Shown piece after piece: positions 198-7,044 of a stretch of DNA of 7,044 nt. This DNA is from Deltaproteobacteria bacterium (GTDB taxonomy: Bacteria > SAR324 > NAC60-12). The stretch's first letter is position 1, and each line of letters opens with the position of its first letter. The notes beneath the pieces were generated by a model that ran no database searches, had not been told where the DNA came from, and worked only from the letters and a program-made list of their open reading frames with translations. The position numbers and the translations under genes are program-made. Location: contig PBZZ01000074.1 of the NCBI GenBank assembly GCA_002730365.1, forward strand, positions 1 to 7,044, in the 5' to 3' direction.

Positions 198-716
198 TCA
201 ATTACTATTTTCAGTGTTACCAATTAGTGCCTGAATGGCCTTATCCTGGGCAAATAATGAATCTAGATTTAGTAGAATCAACATTTCTCCCTTCCACTCA
301 CAAAGACCCTCCAAAAATTGTCTTTCTACAATCATTTCAGTTTCAGGTGGAGGTTGTACATTCTCCGCTGGCAAATTGATTACATCCAAGACCTTGTCAA
401 CTACCATTCCTATGAGCTTTTCTTCAACAAAAATTGTCATCAAAACTGTTCTTTCATTATATTCCAATTGGGGGTATCCAAACCGTAATCTCAGATCCAT
501 TACAGGAATAATTGAACCTCTCAAGTTAATCACTCCCTTATAATGTTCTGGCAAATTTGGAATGATGGAAATTCGATCATATGTAATAAATTCACGCACT
601 TTTCTAATATCCACCATGTAAGTTTCCTCGGCGATCTTAAAACTCACAAATTGCTGCCCCTCATGATTCGAAAATTCATAGGAGTCTTCATATTTAGATT
701 TCTCTTTTAACCCCAT
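198..716 (-). CDS. cheW: CheW-family chemotaxis adaptor protein
   Basis: This 172-residue cytoplasmic adaptor links receptors to the CheA kinase in chemosensory arrays. One CheW-like domain (two SH3-like beta barrels) covers about residues 20-165. Diagnostic stretches are QQFVSFKIAEETYMVDI, where the domain opens, IPNLPEHYKGVINLRGSIIP, the most conserved CheW signature including the NLRG turn, VMDLRLRFG, and GMVVDKVLDVINLP near the second barrel. The length is normal for the family; the first 20 residues are a polar, charged tail. The ATG start at 716 has GAAGG about 10 nt upstream, and this site overlaps the cheA stop region. The gene sits 13 nt after cheA and 10 nt before the receptor gene, as expected for an operon that builds one signalling complex. 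Nothing is broken or unusual. CheW-like paralogues such as CheV carry an extra receiver domain, which is absent here. Confidence 0.95.
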   Translation of the reverse strand: MGLKEKSKYEDSYEFSNHEGQQFVSFKIAEETYMVDIRKVREFITYDRISIIPNLPEHYKGVINLRGSIIPVMDLRLRFGYPQLEYNERTVLMTIFVEEKLIGMVVDKVLDVINLPAENVQPPPETEMIVERQFLEGLCEWKGEMLILLNLDSLFAQDKAIQALIGNTENSN

Positions 717-729
717 TGAGAAAATCCCT

Positions 730-2871
730 TCAATTAGATTTAAAACTCTTTCTCAGCAAACTTGGTAAATCAAGAATCAGAGACACTCCCCCATCTCCTA
801 GAATTGTTGCTCCAGCAATGCCTGGGATTTGAAAAAAATTTTCTTCCATACTTTTAATGACAACCTGTTGCTGATCTAAAATACGATCTACTAATAGACC
901 GCACTGCATCTTGTTATTCTCTACAATCACAACTAATTTTTCTTCGTTTGTTTTTTTCTCGTTTTCCAGATTGAAGGCTTTACCAAGGTTTAAAATCGGC
1001 AGGTATTCACCTCGGATCTCAACCACTTCACCTTGTTTTTGCATCGTTCTAAACTGATCGACTGTGGGACGAATTGATTCCAGAACAGAAAGGAGAGGGA
1101 TCGTAAAGATTTGATTTTGTACCTGGACTAGCATTCCCTCGATAATTGCCAAAGTCAGGGGAAGCTTGATTTGGAAAGTTGATCCCTTTCCGACTTCGCT
1201 ACTGATAAAAATAGAACCTCTCAATGACTCAATCTCCTGACGAACAACATCCATCCCCACTCCTCTGCCCGAGATGTCCGAGACATTCTCCGCGGTAGAA
1301 AAACCGGCATGAAATAAGAGCCTAAAGATTTCTTGCTCATCAAGTTCCGATTTCTCATCAATCAATCCTTTGGCCAATGCCTTCTGAAGGATTACTCTTG
1401 AATCAATGCCTGCACCATCGTCTTGAACTTCTATAAAAACATGACCTTCCCCATGAAACGCTCTTAAATGAATCGAGCCTTCTTCCCCCTTGCCTGTTTC
1501 TAGTCTTTTTTCAATCGACTCGATCCCATGATCCATTGCATTACGGACAAGATGCTTTAGTGGGCCACCAAGTTTTTCTGAAACATTTTTATCCAGTTCA
1601 GTCTCACCACCTAAGATCTGTAGTTTGATTTTTTTTCCTGAGTTCACACAGTAATCCCGCACAATTCTTTGCAACGGTAAAAATGTACCCTTAATCGGTA
1701 CCATGCGAATGTTCATCACCTGATCTTGAAGCTCGCGAACAACAATATCTGAGTCGTAAACGATCTGCTGATAGAGATCGCCCATTCTTCGATCTGCTAA
1801 GCGAAGTTCTTGTCCAAATTCTTTTAATCTGGCTTGGTTGATGACCGTCTCCCCTACCAGATTCATCAATTTATCCAGCTTCATGTTTGAAACATGAATT
1901 GATCCCCCCGACTCGTCTCTCTTCTTAGCGATGTTAGTCTTTGGGGCATTCTTTTCTTGTTTTACATCGGGATTTGTGTCCGATGGCTGTAGCTCTTCTT
2001 TTTTGGTAGCAGAAGTTGAGAAGGGCTCAGATTCAGGTGGATTTCTGTATTTTTCTGTCGTTGCTTCAAGAATCCCAGCATTAATATCGTGCTTGATTTT
2101 TGTTTCAACTGGTGGCCCTTGGATCAACTTGATTTCAATGCCCTCCTCATCCATGAAAAACATTAAGATATCCTCGAGTTCTTCCATTTTCTTGGTTGAT
2201 GAAAGAACCAAACTCCAATGCAGGTGCAGCTTTACAGGATCAAGAATATCTAAATTTGGGATCGAATGACAATGTGGGGTAACATAGCATTCTCCCAGAT
2301 CGTAAAGATCCTTCAGCAAAGCTATCGGATCTCCACTATTTTCCAAAATATCCTCTGAGAATTTCAGTCGGATCAGATACCTAAATTGATTTTCTTTAGG
2401 GGGCTTAAGTACTTGTTGTGTAGGTACAACATCTTGGGGAGTAGTTTCTTGTTCAAGAGGGTCTTCTGAATCGTCTTGAGCCTCTGACAAAATGCGGATC
2501 TGAGCTAAACTCGCTTCTGCGATTCCATGGTCAAATTGATCCACGCCCTCCAGTTCTGAACAATACCCACGCAGGCAATCAATCGAGCTGAGAAGCACAG
2601 TAATGAGTTCTTCTGTGACATTGCGGTTACTACCTCGAACGTCAGATAGCAGGAACTCTACTTCATGGGTATATTTCTGCAATTCTTCAAAGCCGATCAT
2701 GCCTGCGCCACCTTTTATCGTGTGAAATCCACGAAAGGCATTGTTAAGGGCATCTTGATTAGTAGGATCTGCTTCTAAAGTTAGTAAGCTTTCTTCAATC
2801 TGGTCATGCATGTCTGTAGCTTCTTCAAGAAAAAGCTTTACTGCTTCTGGATCAAACTTACTCAAATCCAT
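730..2871 (-). CDS. cheA: Chemotaxis histidine kinase CheA
   Basis: This is a 713-residue cytoplasmic kinase that autophosphorylates on its Hpt histidine and passes phosphate to receiver domains. P1/Hpt spans about residues 5-110 with the site FRGFHTIKGGAGMIGF (His50). A P2-position domain lies at about 160-250 and is not an evident enteric-type P2. A low-complexity Lys/Glu/Pro linker runs from about 252 to 322. The P3 dimerisation helices lie at about 325-385 (KLDKLMNLVGETVINQARL). The P4 ATPase follows, with N-box HLVRNAMDHG (about 440-449), G1 DDGAGID (484-490) and G2 GRGVGMD (535-541). The P5 CheW-like regulatory domain covers about 580-705. All catalytic boxes are intact. I chose ATG at 2871, 5 nt after the cyclase stop, because the family N-terminus begins near DLSKFDPEAVKLFLEEA. 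An in-frame ATG at 2910 would add 13 residues (MGWGLPLLQQITK) that resemble nothing in CheA and would overlap the upstream gene by 34 nt. Neither start has a strong ribosome-binding site, so translational coupling is likely. The probable phosphate acceptor in this window is Asp60 of the receiver-cyclase just upstream. Confidence 0.95.
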   Translation of the reverse strand: MDLSKFDPEAVKLFLEEATDMHDQIEESLLTLEADPTNQDALNNAFRGFHTIKGGAGMIGFEELQKYTHEVEFLLSDVRGSNRNVTEELITVLLSSIDCLRGYCSELEGVDQFDHGIAEASLAQIRILSEAQDDSEDPLEQETTPQDVVPTQQVLKPPKENQFRYLIRLKFSEDILENSGDPIALLKDLYDLGECYVTPHCHSIPNLDILDPVKLHLHWSLVLSSTKKMEELEDILMFFMDEEGIEIKLIQGPPVETKIKHDINAGILEATTEKYRNPPESEPFSTSATKKEELQPSDTNPDVKQEKNAPKTNIAKKRDESGGSIHVSNMKLDKLMNLVGETVINQARLKEFGQELRLADRRMGDLYQQIVYDSDIVVRELQDQVMNIRMVPIKGTFLPLQRIVRDYCVNSGKKIKLQILGGETELDKNVSEKLGGPLKHLVRNAMDHGIESIEKRLETGKGEEGSIHLRAFHGEGHVFIEVQDDGAGIDSRVILQKALAKGLIDEKSELDEQEIFRLLFHAGFSTAENVSDISGRGVGMDVVRQEIESLRGSIFISSEVGKGSTFQIKLPLTLAIIEGMLVQVQNQIFTIPLLSVLESIRPTVDQFRTMQKQGEVVEIRGEYLPILNLGKAFNLENEKKTNEEKLVVIVENNKMQCGLLVDRILDQQQVVIKSMEENFFQIPGIAGATILGDGGVSLILDLPSLLRKSFKSN

Positions 2872-2876
2872 CTTTG

Positions 2877-4286
2877 TTATTTGCTGAAGTAGCGGTAAAC
2901 CCCATCCCAATCTTCTGCCGGAGGAAATTGCTGAAAGTCTTGGGCTCTGGTTAAGTACATTTCAATGGAAGCATCTTCTGGCAAAAGTTCACCACATTCT
3001 TTGAATCCCTCAATCGCCTCCTCCCAATTTCGTTTCAAGTATGAATTCAGTGCCTCTTCAAATAAACCCGCTGCCTTTAATTTGTTTTCGTAATTTTTGT
3101 CGGAGTGTTCGTTGAACACCTCAAATATTCTAACGGGCTCCTTCTTTCCTTTGACTGTTATCCGATCTAAAAAACGCCAGTTGAATTCTTCCAGATGGCT
3201 GATTAGGTTTTTAGAGTCCTCTGACACTAACATCGGAACACGATAGTTTTTGGTTAAGCCTTCCAGCCTTGAAGCAAGATTGACAGCATCACCCAAAACA
3301 GTTGAATCCATTCTGGAATCTGATCCCAAGGTACCGATCACAACTGGGCCACTATGAATGCCAATTCCAATTTGAGTGGGAGGATAATTCTGCTTTTCTC
3401 GAAATTTATTAAATCGAATCAAGCTTGCTTGCATCTCAAGACCAGACCGAACGGCATCTCTGGCTTCTATGGCGTCCGGTTTTCCGGGTTGATCGAAAAG
3501 AGCCATGATTGCGTCTCCAATGAACTTGTCCACAAATCCATGATTCATATGAATTGGTTCTGACATGAACTGAAGAAACGTATTGAGAAACTGCATCAAC
3601 TCGGATGGCTCCATCGACTCAGAAATATCTGTAAAGGAGCGAATGTCAGAAAAAAGAATTGTGATGATGTCACTCTCAGCATGGCCAACTGCAATATTTT
3701 CGATCCCTGTCTTTGCAATCCGATCCAGAAATTCTCGAGGGACGAATTTCTCAAAAATTCTGGTCAATTCAGCCACTGCTGAAATTTCAGCAAGTTCAAC
3801 TTTTGTCTTCTTGAGTTCCTCGTATTGAAGTTTCTGTTGCTGAAGAGACACGTCAAGCTCACTGTTGAGCCGCAATGTTTCCTTTTCTGCCATCCTAACC
3901 CGGAGCAATGATTTTACTCGGGCTTGCAACTCTGAGGGATTGAAGGGTTTTCCCAAGTAATCGTCGGCCTGCAACTCAGTCAGGCCTTTGACGAGTTCTT
4001 CGATTTCTCCGTGTGTAGTCAAAAACAGAACAGGTATATGGCCCCAAAATGGATCAGCTTTAAAAATACGAATAAATTCGTCCCCATTCATTCTCGGCAT
4101 ATTTCGATCCAGAAGTACCAAGTCTGGCAACTGTTCCTTGGTACTTGCCGCAACAAGGTCAAGTGCCTCTTTTCCGTCTCCTGCTTCAGAAATTTTGTAG
4201 TCATGATCTTGCTCGGCCTCCAGAATTTTCCGCACTTGGAAGCGTATAGTTTTGGAGTCATCCACCATGAGTATATTTGCATTCAT
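2877..4286 (-). CDS. Response regulator receiver-adenylate cyclase fusion
   Basis: This 469-residue soluble protein should convert CheA phosphotransfer into cAMP synthesis. Residues 1-128 form a CheY-like receiver: acidic pair Asp9-Asp10, phosphoacceptor Asp60 (LVLLDRNMPRMNG), Thr90/Thr91 and Lys113 (YLGKPF). Residues 130-178 form a charged coiled-coil signalling helix, followed by FVPREFL, a common lead-in to cyclase domains. The class III cyclase domain covers about 205-395. Metal-binding aspartates are Asp214 (LFSDIRSFTD) and Asp258 (FVDKFIGDAIMALF). Lys254 and Thr329 (DSTVLGD) occupy the purine-specifying positions, which in this family favours ATP over GTP. Asn336 and Arg340 (AVNLASRLEG) are the transition-state residues. 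The tail at about 410-469 looks like a TPR-type helical repeat (EALNSYLKRNWEEAIEGF) ending in PPAEDWDGVYRY, a frequent end for such cyclases. The start ATG overlaps the upstream stop in ATGA, with GAGG upstream, so it is coupled to the STAS gene. All catalytic residues are present. Adenylate specificity and CheA as partner are inferences. Confidence 0.93.
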   Translation of the reverse strand: MNANILMVDDSKTIRFQVRKILEAEQDHDYKISEAGDGKEALDLVAASTKEQLPDLVLLDRNMPRMNGDEFIRIFKADPFWGHIPVLFLTTHGEIEELVKGLTELQADDYLGKPFNPSELQARVKSLLRVRMAEKETLRLNSELDVSLQQQKLQYEELKKTKVELAEISAVAELTRIFEKFVPREFLDRIAKTGIENIAVGHAESDIITILFSDIRSFTDISESMEPSELMQFLNTFLQFMSEPIHMNHGFVDKFIGDAIMALFDQPGKPDAIEARDAVRSGLEMQASLIRFNKFREKQNYPPTQIGIGIHSGPVVIGTLGSDSRMDSTVLGDAVNLASRLEGLTKNYRVPMLVSEDSKNLISHLEEFNWRFLDRITVKGKKEPVRIFEVFNEHSDKNYENKLKAAGLFEEALNSYLKRNWEEAIEGFKECGELLPEDASIEMYLTRAQDFQQFPPAEDWDGVYRYFSK

Positions 4287-4582
4287 CCCGGAGCCTCACT
4301 GGCTAGCCAACCAACCCCACACCATTTAAGAATTTTTTCTAAATCTTCATTGAAATGGATTTTAAATTCGCGATCTTCACTACGCATGTATTCCCTCATT
4401 GCAATCAGCAATTGAATTCCTGCGGTATCAATCATGGGAGACTTACTTAGGTCAATTGTTAGACTTTCTGGAGGTTCAGGAGTTTTCGTCAGGATTTCCC
4501 TCAATTGGTTGACGTTGTTTTTTTCCAAAGGTTCTTCGATCACCACTAAATTTTGCGATAGTCGGTACTCCATATCTACCAT
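4283..4582 (-). CDS. STAS-domain protein (anti-sigma-factor-antagonist-like) of the chemosensory operon
   Basis: This 99-residue protein is essentially one STAS domain. The hallmark is ESLTIDLSKSPMIDTAGIQL at about residues 39-58: a beta strand with the conserved IDLS, then Asp52-Thr53-Ala54-Gly55 at the place where SpoIIAA-type antagonists have Asp-Ser-Ser-Gly with a phosphorylated serine. The following helix (LLIAMREYM) and the final strand and helix (FKIHFNEDLEKILKWCGV) complete the fold. It is the first gene of the operon and overlaps the receiver-cyclase start by 4 nt. Small STAS proteins encoded beside cheA are known in other chemosensory clusters, usually without an obvious kinase partner. 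No anti-sigma kinase or PP2C phosphatase is visible here. The start at 4582 lacks a clear ribosome-binding site, and a second ATG three codons downstream (MEYRLSQ) is an alternative. Its role, as adaptor or modulator of the cyclase or array, is unproven. Confidence 0.88.
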   Translation of the reverse strand: MVDMEYRLSQNLVVIEEPLEKNNVNQLREILTKTPEPPESLTIDLSKSPMIDTAGIQLLIAMREYMRSEDREFKIHFNEDLEKILKWCGVGWLASEAPG

Positions 4583-4623
4583 TTTTCAAAGGGCAGCCAC
4601 TGAGGCAAGATGATGAAATTTCT

Positions 4624-4652
4624 CAAATATCAGTTCAGAAAATTTCTCTCAA
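4624..4652 (-). promoter_or_regulatory. Weak candidate sigma-70-type promoter for the chemosensory operon
   Basis: Read on the minus strand, TTGAGA (4652-4647, five of six matches to TTGACA) is followed after 17 nt by TATTTG (4629-4624, only three of six matches to TATAAT). This would give a leader of about 35 nt before the STAS ATG at 4582. It is the best placed of several AT-rich options. The poor -10 box and the AT-rich background mean that chance is a real explanation. Confidence 0.2.
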
Positions 4653-4805
4653 TAAATAGAAAAATCCCTAAAACTAAGCGCTTACAGTGAAAAAATCCAA
4701 GAATAACTTTGAATGAATTTTGTAAATTAATCCAACATTATTGAAGAATTACAATTATTTCTCCTGACATTCCATATTTTATCAGATTGTCAAAACGGAG
4801 GAGAT

Positions 4806-4826
4806 TCTGGATGCGGTTTATCCAGA
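4806..4826. repeat. Perfect 7-bp inverted repeat (TCTGGAT / ATCCAGA)
   Basis: Two 7-nt arms, TCTGGAT (4806-4812) and ATCCAGA (4820-4826), flank a 7-nt loop. The hairpin lies about 75-95 nt past the oxidoreductase stop. It could act as a transcription end for that gene, but no T-tract follows on the minus strand, so an intrinsic terminator is not supported. It may equally be a chance palindrome inside the possible gene remnant. Confidence 0.3.
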
Positions 4827-4899
4827 TGAAGTGGAAGGGCTTACAAACTTGGATTGGATCTGAAAATAGACTCTACAATTGGAGTAAAAGATGAAGGAT

Positions 4900-5511
4900 T
4901 TAAAAGGTATTTTTAACAACGAAGCGCTCAAGGATCTCATAAGACTGGGCTCCTGAAATTCCATACTGTCCTATCACGAACGTCGGTACACCCGAAATTC
5001 CAATTTGCCTCGATCTCATCCAATCAATGTCAACTGCTTCTTTGAAAACACGTTTTTCAAGGACTTTCGTAGCTTCTTGAGTTGACAGCCCAGCTTCCCC
5101 AGCAAGTTTTACTAGCAGGTTCTGATTAGCCAGGTTTTGCCCATCAACAAAATACGCTTCAAATATTTTCTGGTTTAGCAAAGAGCTTTCTGGGAATCTT
5201 TCCCCCCATTTCGATAGTTCCTGAGCTAATCGACTATTGTAAGTGTGTGTTCGATTTCCATAGGGCAACCCCTCCAACCGTATCAACTCTCTTAGATGCC
5301 CCTGAATAGCTGGAATGTCAAAATCTCTCCCTGCAAATAGTTCTTCCAAAGACAAACCTTTTTGCGGTGTTTCAGGATGTAATGGGAACTGAACCCACTT
5401 GATCGACAATTTGAATTTTTCCTCCAACCTTTTGACACGCCCGGTGACAAGATAGCACCAGGGTCAGACAAAATCGCTGAAGACTTCTAAAGTCAGCTTT
5501 ACTTTATTCAT
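4900..5511 (-). CDS. Selenocysteine-containing DsbA-family (FrnE-like) thiol oxidoreductase, TGA at codon 16 read as Sec
   Basis: The reading frame from ATG at 5511 encodes 203 residues if the TGA at 5464-5466 is decoded. The N-terminus is MNKVKLTLEVFSDFV-U-PWCYLVTGRV. DsbA/FrnE-family proteins open with a beta strand, SD, then the redox motif CPWC; here the TGA replaces the first, nucleophilic cysteine and Cys19 is the resolving one. The rest of the fold follows without interruption: strand and loop KWVQFPLHPETPQKG (about 38-52), a helical insertion (about 55-150), and the cis-proline loop GISGVPTFVIG with Pro176, which packs against the active site. A length near 200 is normal. An in-frame TGA at 5518-5520 just before the ATG leaves no other upstream start; the ribosome-binding site is weak (AAGAA). 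A SECIS-like hairpin follows the TGA. The next gene on this strand is a pseudogene, so simple decay by a Cys-to-stop mutation is the main alternative. The clean downstream frame, exact cysteine position and hairpin argue against it. Substrate and localisation are unknown; no signal peptide is seen, so it is probably cytoplasmic. Confidence 0.8.
5432..5450 (-). promoter_or_regulatory. Putative bacterial SECIS hairpin downstream of the in-frame UGA
   Basis: In the mRNA (minus strand) UUGUCAC (5450-5444) pairs with GUGUCAA (5438-5432) around a 5-nt loop CGGGC. Six of seven positions pair and a U-U mismatch sits in the middle. The loop begins 21 nt after the UGA, with G as its second base. Known bacterial SECIS elements also lie inside the coding region just after UGA, with a short stem, a bulged or mismatched U and a small G-containing loop. 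That is established for fdhF-type elements. The match here is structural and not proven. An alternative pairing of CCC/GGUG right after the UGA with CACC/GGG (5463-5440) would compete with it. Confidence 0.55.
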
Positions 5512-5550
5512 TTGAATTCATTCTTAACAGTTTTCCTGGTTCTTTGGGAA

Positions 5551-5575
5551 ACATTCCTACATAAATCTGGAATGT
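5551..5575. repeat. Perfect 7-bp inverted repeat between the regulator remnant and the oxidoreductase
   Basis: ACATTCC (5551-5557) and GGAATGT (5569-5575) are perfect inverted arms around an 11-nt spacer. The element lies in the 67-nt gap after the GntR remnant and about 40-65 nt before the oxidoreductase ATG. It could be an operator for the oxidoreductase or a hairpin ending the old regulator transcript. No T-tract follows on the minus strand, so a rho-independent terminator is not supported. Arms this short can arise by chance. Confidence 0.3.
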
Positions 5576-5578
5576 GTC

Positions 5579-6235
5579 TCACTCTGTATTCGGTTTTGCC
5601 GTGATCAAGCCATCTCTGACCTCATCAATGTGTATTTTCATGATAGCAGCAGCATTGTCCTAATCCCTTTCGCGGACAGCTCGATCAATCGCGTAATGTT
5701 GTGCAAAACTGAGATGATCCATGGGTGGAACAGCCTTTGACCTCGGAGTCGTCCCCAAACAATTGCACGCCGAATTGCATTCAATTGATCAAAAAGTGCC
5801 AACAAAACCGTGTTTCGAGGAACCTCTACAATGGTACGATGCAGCCGGTTATCGACATTTTCGTATTGACGCCAAGTTACTGCTTCTGGCTGTGCAACCT
5901 GGCAGCGCTTCAATTCATCAATATGGTAACCCGTTGCATTGATTGCAGCCTGTCAAGCAAGTAAAGGTTCGATCAATATTCTCGCACTCATTACTTCCAT
6001 CGGGTTAGATTGTTCAGCAACCCGACCAACAATAGAAAGTTCGTCAATTGGTTTCGCACCAAAAAAAGTTCCTTTACCAACTCTTTGCCACAGTTCTCCG
6101 TTTTTTTTAAGATTTGCCAGTTTTCTTGGAAAACCCGCAAAGGTCACCTTTAGGAATTTGCGAATTCAAATTAGAAAAACGCTCAAAACTTCTGTGTATA
6201 TCTGATTTCTCCTCAATAGAAATTACATCTTTCAT
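5579..6235 (-). pseudogene. Decayed GntR-family transcriptional regulator (FCD/FadR subfamily)
   Basis: Pieces of a GntR regulator are readable in order but not in one frame. From ATG 6235 (or 6247) the first frame gives SQIPKGDLCGFSKKT, resembling the helix-turn-helix entry, and stops with TAA at 6107-6109. A shifted frame then gives LANLKKNGELWQRVGKGTFF, the wing of the GntR domain, and EQSNPMEVMSARILIEPLLA, the start of the FCD effector domain. A TGA (5953-5955) interrupts where the family usually has an ordinary residue. The same frame resumes as QAAINATGYHIDELKRC, then WRQYENVDNRLHRTIVE and LLALFDQLNAIRRAIVWGRL, clear FCD helices. Near 5722-5732 the frame shifts again to PPMDHLSFAQHYAIDRAVRE, meets TAG at 5660-5662, and finishes DNAAAIMKIHIDEV to TGA at 5579. 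The helix-turn-helix also seems to have lost residues. Such regulators usually bind carboxylate-type effectors and control divergent catabolic genes. Here the divergent gene is also dead. The protein cannot be functional as read. Confidence 0.85.
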
Positions 6236-6345
6236 CATCAACTTCATTTGTTTTTTTCGTATCTGGAATTACGCCATCAAAAAATAAGATATTTACAGTA
6301 TTTCTCTCGGAGATTACGAATCACAACTGAGAAGCGTTTGAGAAA

Positions 6346-6400
6346 TTGTAATTGCCCGACCAAATTGATTCTGACAAGCAAAAATAATTGTTTGTAATTG
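6346..6400. repeat. Direct repeat TTGTAATTG, two copies, between the divergent pseudogenes
   Basis: TTGTAATTG occurs at 6346-6354 and again at 6392-6400, with starts 46 nt apart. Both copies lie between the regulator remnant and the hydrolase remnant, the place where a GntR regulator would bind; the second overlaps the presumed 5' end of the hydrolase remnant. The repeat could be a relic of operator sites, but the region is AT-rich and the unit short, so chance is likely. Confidence 0.2.
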
Positions 6401-6954
6401 ATACAGCACTAAAAGTTTGCTATCAATCCGATGTTCCAATGAGTTGTTTCCTATCCACAGGATTTATTACATTGGCCGTAACTATGCTGAAAACCAATGA
6501 TGTGCAATATGAGATGGAGTCAGCTCTCAAAAGCGGCGGTGCTGACATCAGTCTGGATGCCGCACTCGAACATGTCTACGGGTACGGACTAGGATTAGAC
6601 ATGACTCGGCGTGACCTGCAAGGAGAGGCCAAAAAACATGGTAGACTTGGGAGGTTGTGAAAATCCTTTGAAAAATCTGCCCCGATGAGCGAGCTTGTTC
6701 CTACGAGTGAGACCGGACACTTGGATCAGACTAATCTGCCTGAGAGTCAATGTTGAGAACAACTGTACGAAGATCCAAAACAAATGATTTGGAAAGTGCC
6801 CGAAATGAATGCATACCTATCGAAATTTTATGACGTCGCAGGTGGAGATTTGATCATGTCTGGAATTCCAGCAGTTGTGGGGCCTGTTTAAAGGGGGCAT
6901 AAAATATAGTATGAAATTGAAAACCTCGGCACCATGACAGTTGAAGTCATTTAA
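6388..6954 (+). pseudogene. Decayed fumarylacetoacetate hydrolase (FAH)-family enzyme
   Basis: Family landmarks appear in the right order but across frames and stops. One frame gives NELFPIHRIYYIGRNYAEN, the N-terminal FAH signature (usually FPVRRIYCVGRNYA), ending in TGA at 6498. A second frame carries QYEMESALKSGGADIS (family HHEIELVVAL), HVYGYGLGLDMTRRDLQGEA, then SFEKSAPMSELVPTSETGHL, QMIWKVPEMNAYLSKF and GDLIMSGIPAVVGP (family GDLITGTPAGVGPV), ending YEIENLGTMTVEVI at TAA 6952-6954. Stops interrupt it at 6658, 6754, 6889 and 6907. Roughly 40 or more residues between the GRNYA signature and the HHE metal-binding region are missing. Intact relatives hydrolyse acylpyruvate-type products of ring cleavage, such as fumarylpyruvate. 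The 5' boundary is uncertain: 6388 is a TTG in the frame of the second segment. The metal site and substrate loop are lost, so no activity is expected. Confidence 0.85.
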
Positions 6955-6997: not shown

Positions 6998-7044
6998 GTG
7001 ACGATTAGATCAATCATCGATGCCGGCAACGCTAAAGCTATTGC
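6998..7044 (+). CDS. Start of an unidentified gene, cut by the right edge
   Basis: A GTG at 6998-7000 is preceded by GAAGG about 8 nt upstream and opens a frame reading MTIRSIIDAGNAKAIA to the window end. It begins 43 nt after the end of the hydrolase remnant, on the same strand, so it was probably downstream in the same catabolic operon. Only 15 complete codons are visible and I do not recognise the family. Since its neighbours are decayed, it may be decayed too. No in-frame stop is seen in the visible part. Confidence 0.4.
   Translation, partial: MTIRSIIDAGNAKAI

Follow-up and report, generated by a model that had tools for sequence, protein, structure and literature searches.

A probable selenocysteine-containing FrnE-type DsbA oxidoreductase with a conserved hairpin downstream of its in-frame UGA

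In a 7,044-nucleotide stretch of bacterial DNA (the window), a minus-strand reading frame opens with an ATG, meets a TGA at codon 16 and then stays open to a TAA. The locus raises the question of whether this TGA ends a protein, marks a dying gene or encodes an amino acid. Here we argue that the gene very probably encodes a FrnE-type DsbA thiol–disulfide oxidoreductase with selenocysteine (Sec) as its attacking residue, the UGA being decoded through SelB and a downstream RNA hairpin. The computed evidence consists of the frame itself, the correspondence of TGA and cysteine codons, a family-wide hairpin and its covariation, dN below dS, the fold family and the Sec machinery of relatives. An uncultured marine lineage thereby probably gains a selenium-dependent redox enzyme.

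Reading frame and fold

Translation of the minus strand from the ATG at 5511 gives MNKVKLTLEVFSDFV-TGA-PWCYL... and continues to the TAA at 4900. Exactly two stops lie in the frame 5511–4900, at codons 16 and 204, and the stretch past the TGA comprises 187 open codons, which confirms a sequence-only reading of this DNA in which codon 16 alone interrupted the gene. That reading had also predicted that conventional gene calling would truncate the gene at TTG 5427 and lose the active site; a mechanical open-reading-frame caller does exactly so, starting at TTG 5427 and returning 175 amino acids. The features of the gene are as follows.

4900..5511, minus strand: putative Sec-containing FrnE-type DsbA gene, 203 residues, ATG start and TAA stop (from Pfam, PDB sequence match and predicted fold)
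5464..5466, minus strand: in-frame TGA, codon 16, at the predicted attacking residue of the U-P-W-C motif (from codon comparison with relatives)
5455..5457, minus strand: Cys19 codon, the expected resolving cysteine (invariant in 44 of 44 TGA genes)
5425..5427, minus strand: internal TTG chosen by conventional gene calling, giving a 175-residue product without the active site
5407..5409, minus strand: second internal TTG, which would yield a 169-residue form common among database matches
4984..4986, minus strand: Pro176 codon in GVPTF, the expected cis-proline opposite the active site (from the alignment of relatives)

With residue 16 set as cysteine, the product matches the Pfam family DSBA (PF01323) at E = 5.1e-28 and 98.6 bits (cut-off 25.6), and its best sequence match in the PDB is FrnE (E = 3.9e-25); no NCBIfam family scored above its cut-off. 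The predicted model (pLDDT 92) has a thioredoxin-like fold of the DsbA kind in which helix 1 begins at the active site, and FrnE is the top structural match by Foldseek E-value. The DsbA/FrnE-type identity first proposed from the letters alone thus holds by sequence and by predicted fold. Residue 16 sits between strand 1 (residues 7–12) and helix 1 (residues 17–33), which is where the attacking residue usually lies in proteins of this fold. Cys19 is the sole cysteine of the 203-residue product. Pro176 and Thr177 are invariant in the alignment of 52 relatives, and we assume for Pro176 the role of the cis-proline that faces the active site in thioredoxin folds. By inspection, strand 1 begins at residue 7, which leaves no room for a signal peptide; the protein is probably cytoplasmic.

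Codon 16 in relatives

The closest genes found by genome search are in the genomes G038 and G001 (87–88% identity), and the nearest named protein among the matches listed is P0051 of a SAR324 cluster bacterium (87% identity). When relatives were chosen by kinship and match score rather than by codon, the site was TGA in all 43 that were read: 24 from the phylum of G001, 16 alphaproteobacterial and 3 gammaproteobacterial, with identity down to 37%. The phylum of G001, inferred to be SAR324, was represented by 52 genomes and gave 24 matches at E <= 1e-25, each with one TGA and all at codon 16; within the order of G001, 21 of 41 genomes had a match at E <= 0.001. The alphaproteobacterial order of G043 (the genome of locus L003, titled Rhodospirillaceae; 43 genomes) gave 20 matches at E <= 1e-30, each with one TGA, which lies at codon 16 in 16 of the 16 whose TGA position was read, the other 4 being known by their count of one TGA. 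The gammaproteobacterial order of G042 (the genome of locus L002, which is titled Gammaproteobacteria) was sampled by 194 genomes out of a larger group; they yielded three matches, all three with TGA at codon 16. Above the thresholds of these kinship searches, in the phylum and in the alpha- and gammaproteobacterial orders, there was no match without a TGA. Weaker matches in the order of G001 (20–27% identity) mostly have no internal stop; five of those read have serine codons at the site, and we take these weaker matches for paralogues.

Cysteine forms are also abundant. A contig scan recovered 138 relatives, and among the best 80 the site is TGC or TGT in 77 and TGA in 3 (L001, L002 and L003), a ratio biased towards cysteine because the peptide patterns of the scan include the Cys motif. 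The in-frame TGA is thus aligned with the redox cysteine of homologues, as expected of a bacterial selenoprotein gene. The cysteine that had been anticipated opposite codon 16 is there, and a look for TGA or Cys codons in other strains or species found both, with other species keeping the TGA. Across the 44 TGA genes (43 relatives and the window; 37–88% identity), Asp13, Pro17, Cys19 and Tyr20 are invariant, Phe11 is kept in 41 and Trp18 in 43.

Two loci stand apart. The orthologue in G027, one of the 24 phylum genes, is split between two frames past about residue 129 (L121/L124) by a frameshift or an assembly error. A distant DsbA paralogue in G007 (L122, near base 1534; 28–29% identity) has a TGA in a U-P-F-C motif followed by a hairpin of its own, and is possibly a second Sec DsbA type.

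If the upstream part were untranslated, the true product would be a short protein starting at TTG 5427 or 5409, as conventional gene calls have it. A protein search lends this some appearance of support: among the 120 matches listed of 3,749, 57 start past the Sec site, many of them thereby resembling the short form, 62 have cysteine and 1 has tryptophan. These 57 were judged from their listed starts, some lie on contigs shorter than 1 kb, and a cut at TGA is not proven for each. The nearest database relatives are entered without their active site because gene finders take the apparent Sec TGA for a real stop. Against the short form, relatives of 37–88% identity conserve residues that precede the internal start, and over the 30 bases ahead of the TGA the window differs from L001 at only 2 and from L103 at only 3. 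On the predicted model, a short protein would moreover begin past strand 1 and the active site and keep little or nothing of helix 1. We consider the short form very unlikely.

A conserved hairpin downstream of the UGA

A SECIS-like hairpin directly 3′ of the UGA, a feature absent from the sequence-only reading, is present at the level of the family, and the window has its counterpart.

5431..5451, minus strand: bacterial SECIS-like hairpin, stem 5444–5451 with 5431–5438, pentaloop 5439–5443 (CGGGC)

A stem with as many as 8 pairs starts 12 nt past the UGA in the family, and a 5-base loop starts 20 nt past it, with G at the second loop position in 44 of 44 TGA genes. Bacterial SECIS elements usually obey rules on this distance and on a G in the loop.

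The 44 TGA genes form on average 6.75 of the 8 pairs, compared with 4.11 when their sequences are redrawn synonymously with codons taken from each gene's own usage; none of 2,000 redrawn sets reaches the observed total. The excess holds separately for the 25 rows of the phylum, window included (0/2,000), and for the 19 alpha- and gammaproteobacterial rows (0/2,000). The 77 Cys genes form 4.08 pairs versus 4.06 redrawn, a value reached by 841 of 2,000 sets (963 of 2,000 in another run). These counts leave out L104 and L175, duplicates of L001 and L002, and the distant paralogue L122. Unaided, RNAalifold recovered 6 of the 8 stem pairs from the first 27 genes. Among 40 distinct rows, 85% of stem cells are paired, as against 23–45% when the stem is slid along the alignment, and 28 cells have changed on both sides, as against a shuffled mean of 9 (0/500). 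Three pairs carry compensatory changes (UA/CG; AU/GC/UA/UG; CG/UA/GC). Of the five covariation measures, two do not exceed shuffles: the count of pairs with double changes is reached by 477 of 500 shuffles and that of pair types by 450 of 500. Since the rows share ancestry, the double changes are not independent events.

In the window itself, 6 of the 8 stem pairs form, with a U·U mismatch and an open outermost pair. Folded alone, the RNA downstream of the window's UGA shows no significant stability (z between −0.74 and −1.39), and the fold of the hairpin stretch is equalled or bettered by 33.5% of its synonymous variants. Taken singly, the window gives P = 0.05 by pairs and 0.335 by energy, and many TGA genes are likewise not significant on their own. 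The minimum-energy fold of the window is a competing stem adjoining the UGA; we set it aside, as only some of the relatives share such a UGA-adjacent stem, whereas the stem 12 nt on covaries. Single-sequence folding is uninformative here; the case for the window hairpin is built on the family. A search of Rfam gave no match at gathering scores.

Selenocysteine machinery in related genomes

The genome G001 carries a tRNA-Sec (60.1 bits; anticodon UCA by ARAGORN), selB (360 bits), selD (383 bits) and a 241-bit selA fragment at a contig end, below the curated cut-off of 268 bits. G038 has a tRNA-Sec with anticodon UCA (61.8 bits) and selB (349 bits), and the tRNA-Sec genes of G042 and G043 (66.9 and 72.5 bits) were both read as UCA. 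Across the 41 genomes of the order of G001, selB is above cut-off in 38 and a tRNA-Sec of at least 52 bits is found in 31, of which ARAGORN read 30 (all but that of G013), all as UCA. Counting was restricted to scores of at least 52 bits because the tRNA-Sec model is unspecific near its cut-off: 5 of 14 control genomes scored above it, and a 47-bit match at L082 is a tRNA-Leu by ARAGORN. In the same controls, selB was above cut-off in 2, selD in 2 and selA in 1.

Among the 19 genomes of the order that have the gene, 17 carry the tRNA-Sec (all UCA by ARAGORN), 18 carry selB and all 19 carry at least one of the two; no clear tRNA-Sec was found in G018 or G020, and no selB in G002. The 22 genomes without the gene include 14 with the tRNA-Sec and 20 with selB. 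The machinery is therefore general in the order and by itself no predictor of the gene. Having found it in the genomes of relatives, we infer that the host itself has it.

The selD gene of G001 (L099; C121:5028–5945) itself contains an in-frame TGA. Sec-containing SelD proteins, likewise encoded with an in-frame TGA, are known.

The UGA might alternatively be read through without Sec, by leaky termination or insertion of another residue, to give a low level of the long form, and the case for Sec here is indeed one of computation rather than of protein. Such read-through is less likely still than a short product: the site corresponds to the cysteine of CPWC, a hairpin comes after it as it does in selenoprotein genes of bacteria, and selB and a tRNA-Sec of at least 52 bits occur in 38 and 31 of the 41 genomes of the order. 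These observations favour Sec over other residues at the UGA.

Selection and neighbouring genes

Compared past the TGA with its two closest relatives, the window gene gives dN 0.057 and dS 0.382 against L001, a locus of G001, and dN 0.065 and dS 0.564 against L103. Nonsynonymous decay or further frameshifts, named in advance as signs that would speak against Sec, are not seen; dN is well below dS and there are no other stops.

The surroundings of the gene are less intact. A GntR/FCD-type regulator (window 5588–6156, minus strand) is decayed, its frame being both interrupted by a stop and broken; long copies matching it lie directly upstream of the Sec gene in L001 and L103. A FAH-family hydrolase gene (window 6420–6951, plus strand) is broken. 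Both genes are intact in L001, where an ABC-transporter block lies between GntR and FAH (2965–6416) that has no match in the window. By eye, window 6998–7044 (plus strand) looks like the beginning of the AMP-ligase-like gene found in L001. On the other side, window 198–4582 (minus strand) holds a chemotaxis-like cluster of CheW, CheA, a response regulator with an adenylate/guanylate cyclase domain and a STAS protein. In a search of 25 loci, whose flanks mostly span about 1.5 kb, only the two closest genomes yielded GntR, STAS and the response regulator, and a functional link to the chemotaxis genes found no support.

With such neighbours, the TGA could conceivably be a nonsense mutation and the gene itself decaying. 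The decayed neighbours also show what decay looks like locally, and the Sec gene is different: it has no further stop, its dN is well under dS, the residues right before the TGA and the RNA hairpin are conserved, and the TGA recurs in all 43 relatives that were chosen by kinship and read, even where identity is as low as 37%. Unless those relatives share the same mis-assembly, this conservation across species refutes decay, to which we give almost no credence. It is just as implausible that this organism reads TGA as tryptophan or some other standard residue, since TGA terminates CheW, CheA and STAS in the window, it also closes the Sec gene or its relative in 19 of 45 rows (window and one duplicate included), and SelB and tRNA-Sec are present in relatives. 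The tryptophan at the site in P0056, one of the 120 matches listed, appears to favour that reading; P0056 has a further tryptophan at position 201, which corresponds to the terminal TGA of this gene in L108, and so was most likely translated under a code with TGA as tryptophan. The apparent tryptophan reading of the terminal TGA would have given P0056 a false C-terminal extension.

Proposed mechanism

The alignment with cysteine, the TGA relatives, the FrnE match, dN below dS and the family hairpin together support the original proposal that the TGA codes for Sec. In the mechanism we propose, SelB with Sec-tRNA-Sec would read the UGA at codon 16, guided by the hairpin 12 nt downstream, so that Sec would be inserted at residue 16 and serve as the catalytic residue. 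The selenolate of Sec16 would attack a substrate disulfide or an oxidised thiol, the resulting selenenylsulfide would be resolved by Cys19, and the enzyme would be recycled by a cellular thiol system. According to PMC8945050, a disruption mutant of FrnE of Deinococcus radiodurans (DrFrnE) is sensitive to cadmium and diamide, which by analogy suggests a role in cytoplasmic oxidative stress.

Direction of change between Sec and Cys

Sec rows do not form one group in either of two trees, and Cys groups sit among them. Seven changes between Sec and Cys are needed, of which well-supported branches force at least four in the first tree (115 rows; 26 of the 77 Cys loci and all 62 listed Cys proteins) or at least three in the second (71 rows, with the Sec/Cys residue masked; 10 of the 77 loci and 19 of the 62 proteins). 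L121 was left out of both trees and L172 of the second. The midpoint root of the second tree falls on the branch to planctomycete Cys forms; from there, one reading is a single gain of Sec followed by several reversions, and another is several gains. Because bootstrap support is unsettled and many forks are open, the direction of change is a lead. We entertain as a tentative possibility, one that we would not favour outright, that Sec is the old state in this FrnE subfamily: gained once, kept as the sole form throughout the candidate phylum and in the alpha- and gammaproteobacterial orders, and reverted to Cys several times independently in other lineages.

If true, this Sec-first history would contradict the widespread idea that Sec is derived, an upgrade from Cys, and the subfamily would constitute a natural series of matched Sec/Cys pairs. 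The Sec and Cys forms at 50–58% identity provide matched pairs for gauging the benefit of Sec, and the conserved hairpin is a concrete SECIS candidate.

Comparison with known systems

The closest relative of solved structure, by sequence and by Foldseek E-value, is DrFrnE (DR_0659; PDB 5cnw and 5cp1), with a TM-score of 0.86–0.88 on the query and 29–30% identity. FrnE is described in PMC8945050 as a DsbA subfamily predicted to be cytoplasmic, with CP(W/F)C in Deinococcus. The window protein differs from DrFrnE in having predicted Sec in place of the first Cys and in lacking the C-terminal CXXXXC, as it has no Cys past residue 19. That motif is also missing from FrnE of S. roseofulvus and D. 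maricopensis and is not general in FrnE (PMC8945050). The second-best sequence match is SCO1869 of Streptomyces coelicolor (PDB 3gl5; E = 1.6e-13; 25% identity), annotated merely as a probable DsbA oxidoreductase; its TM-score on the query (0.89) is the highest among the top rows, and its Foldseek E-value is weaker than that of FrnE. Cys-containing DsbA-family oxidoreductases (62 of the 120 matches listed, P0057, P0058 and P0087 among them; 51–58% identity) have Cys where the window has the predicted Sec.

Sec-containing DsbA-like proteins had been said to be known already from marine metagenomes, and rightly so (PMC2398784). That GOS survey describes a DsbA-like selenoprotein family of PF01323 with a UxxC motif as 'DsbA 1', which a 2026 review calls 'DsbA-like protein form 1' (PMC13188914). 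Compared by description, this family and the window gene share the Pfam family and, as predicted for the window gene, Sec as the first residue of UxxC. UxxC DsbA-like selenoproteins are commoner in marine samples, according to PMC2398784, PMC13188914, PMC5029168, PMC9312934 and PMC1794560. A Sec-containing oxidoreductase FrnE is reported in PMC6627142 from green algae (Mamiellophyceae and M. viride); by description it is likewise a Sec FrnE, but its genes are eukaryotic.

The word SAR324 is absent from the main texts of PMC2398784, PMC13188914 and PMC9312934, and the passages available from PMC12013277 contain neither DsbA nor SAR324. In the open-licence PMC literature, where absence is weak evidence, SAR324 occurs together with selenocysteine, with selenoprotein, or with selenoprotein and DsbA only in PMC5029168. 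Table 1 of that 2016 survey lists two SAR324 single-cell genomes with an orphan SelD and without the Sec trait; if the lineage studied here is SAR324, our results suggest that those genomes are incomplete.

Because both DsbA-like UxxC and algal FrnE selenoproteins have been published, the window gene is a further probable DsbA selenoprotein of a known sort. What is apparently new relative to these systems is the Sec-only state across a lineage, a defined SECIS element and the nesting of Cys forms among Sec forms.
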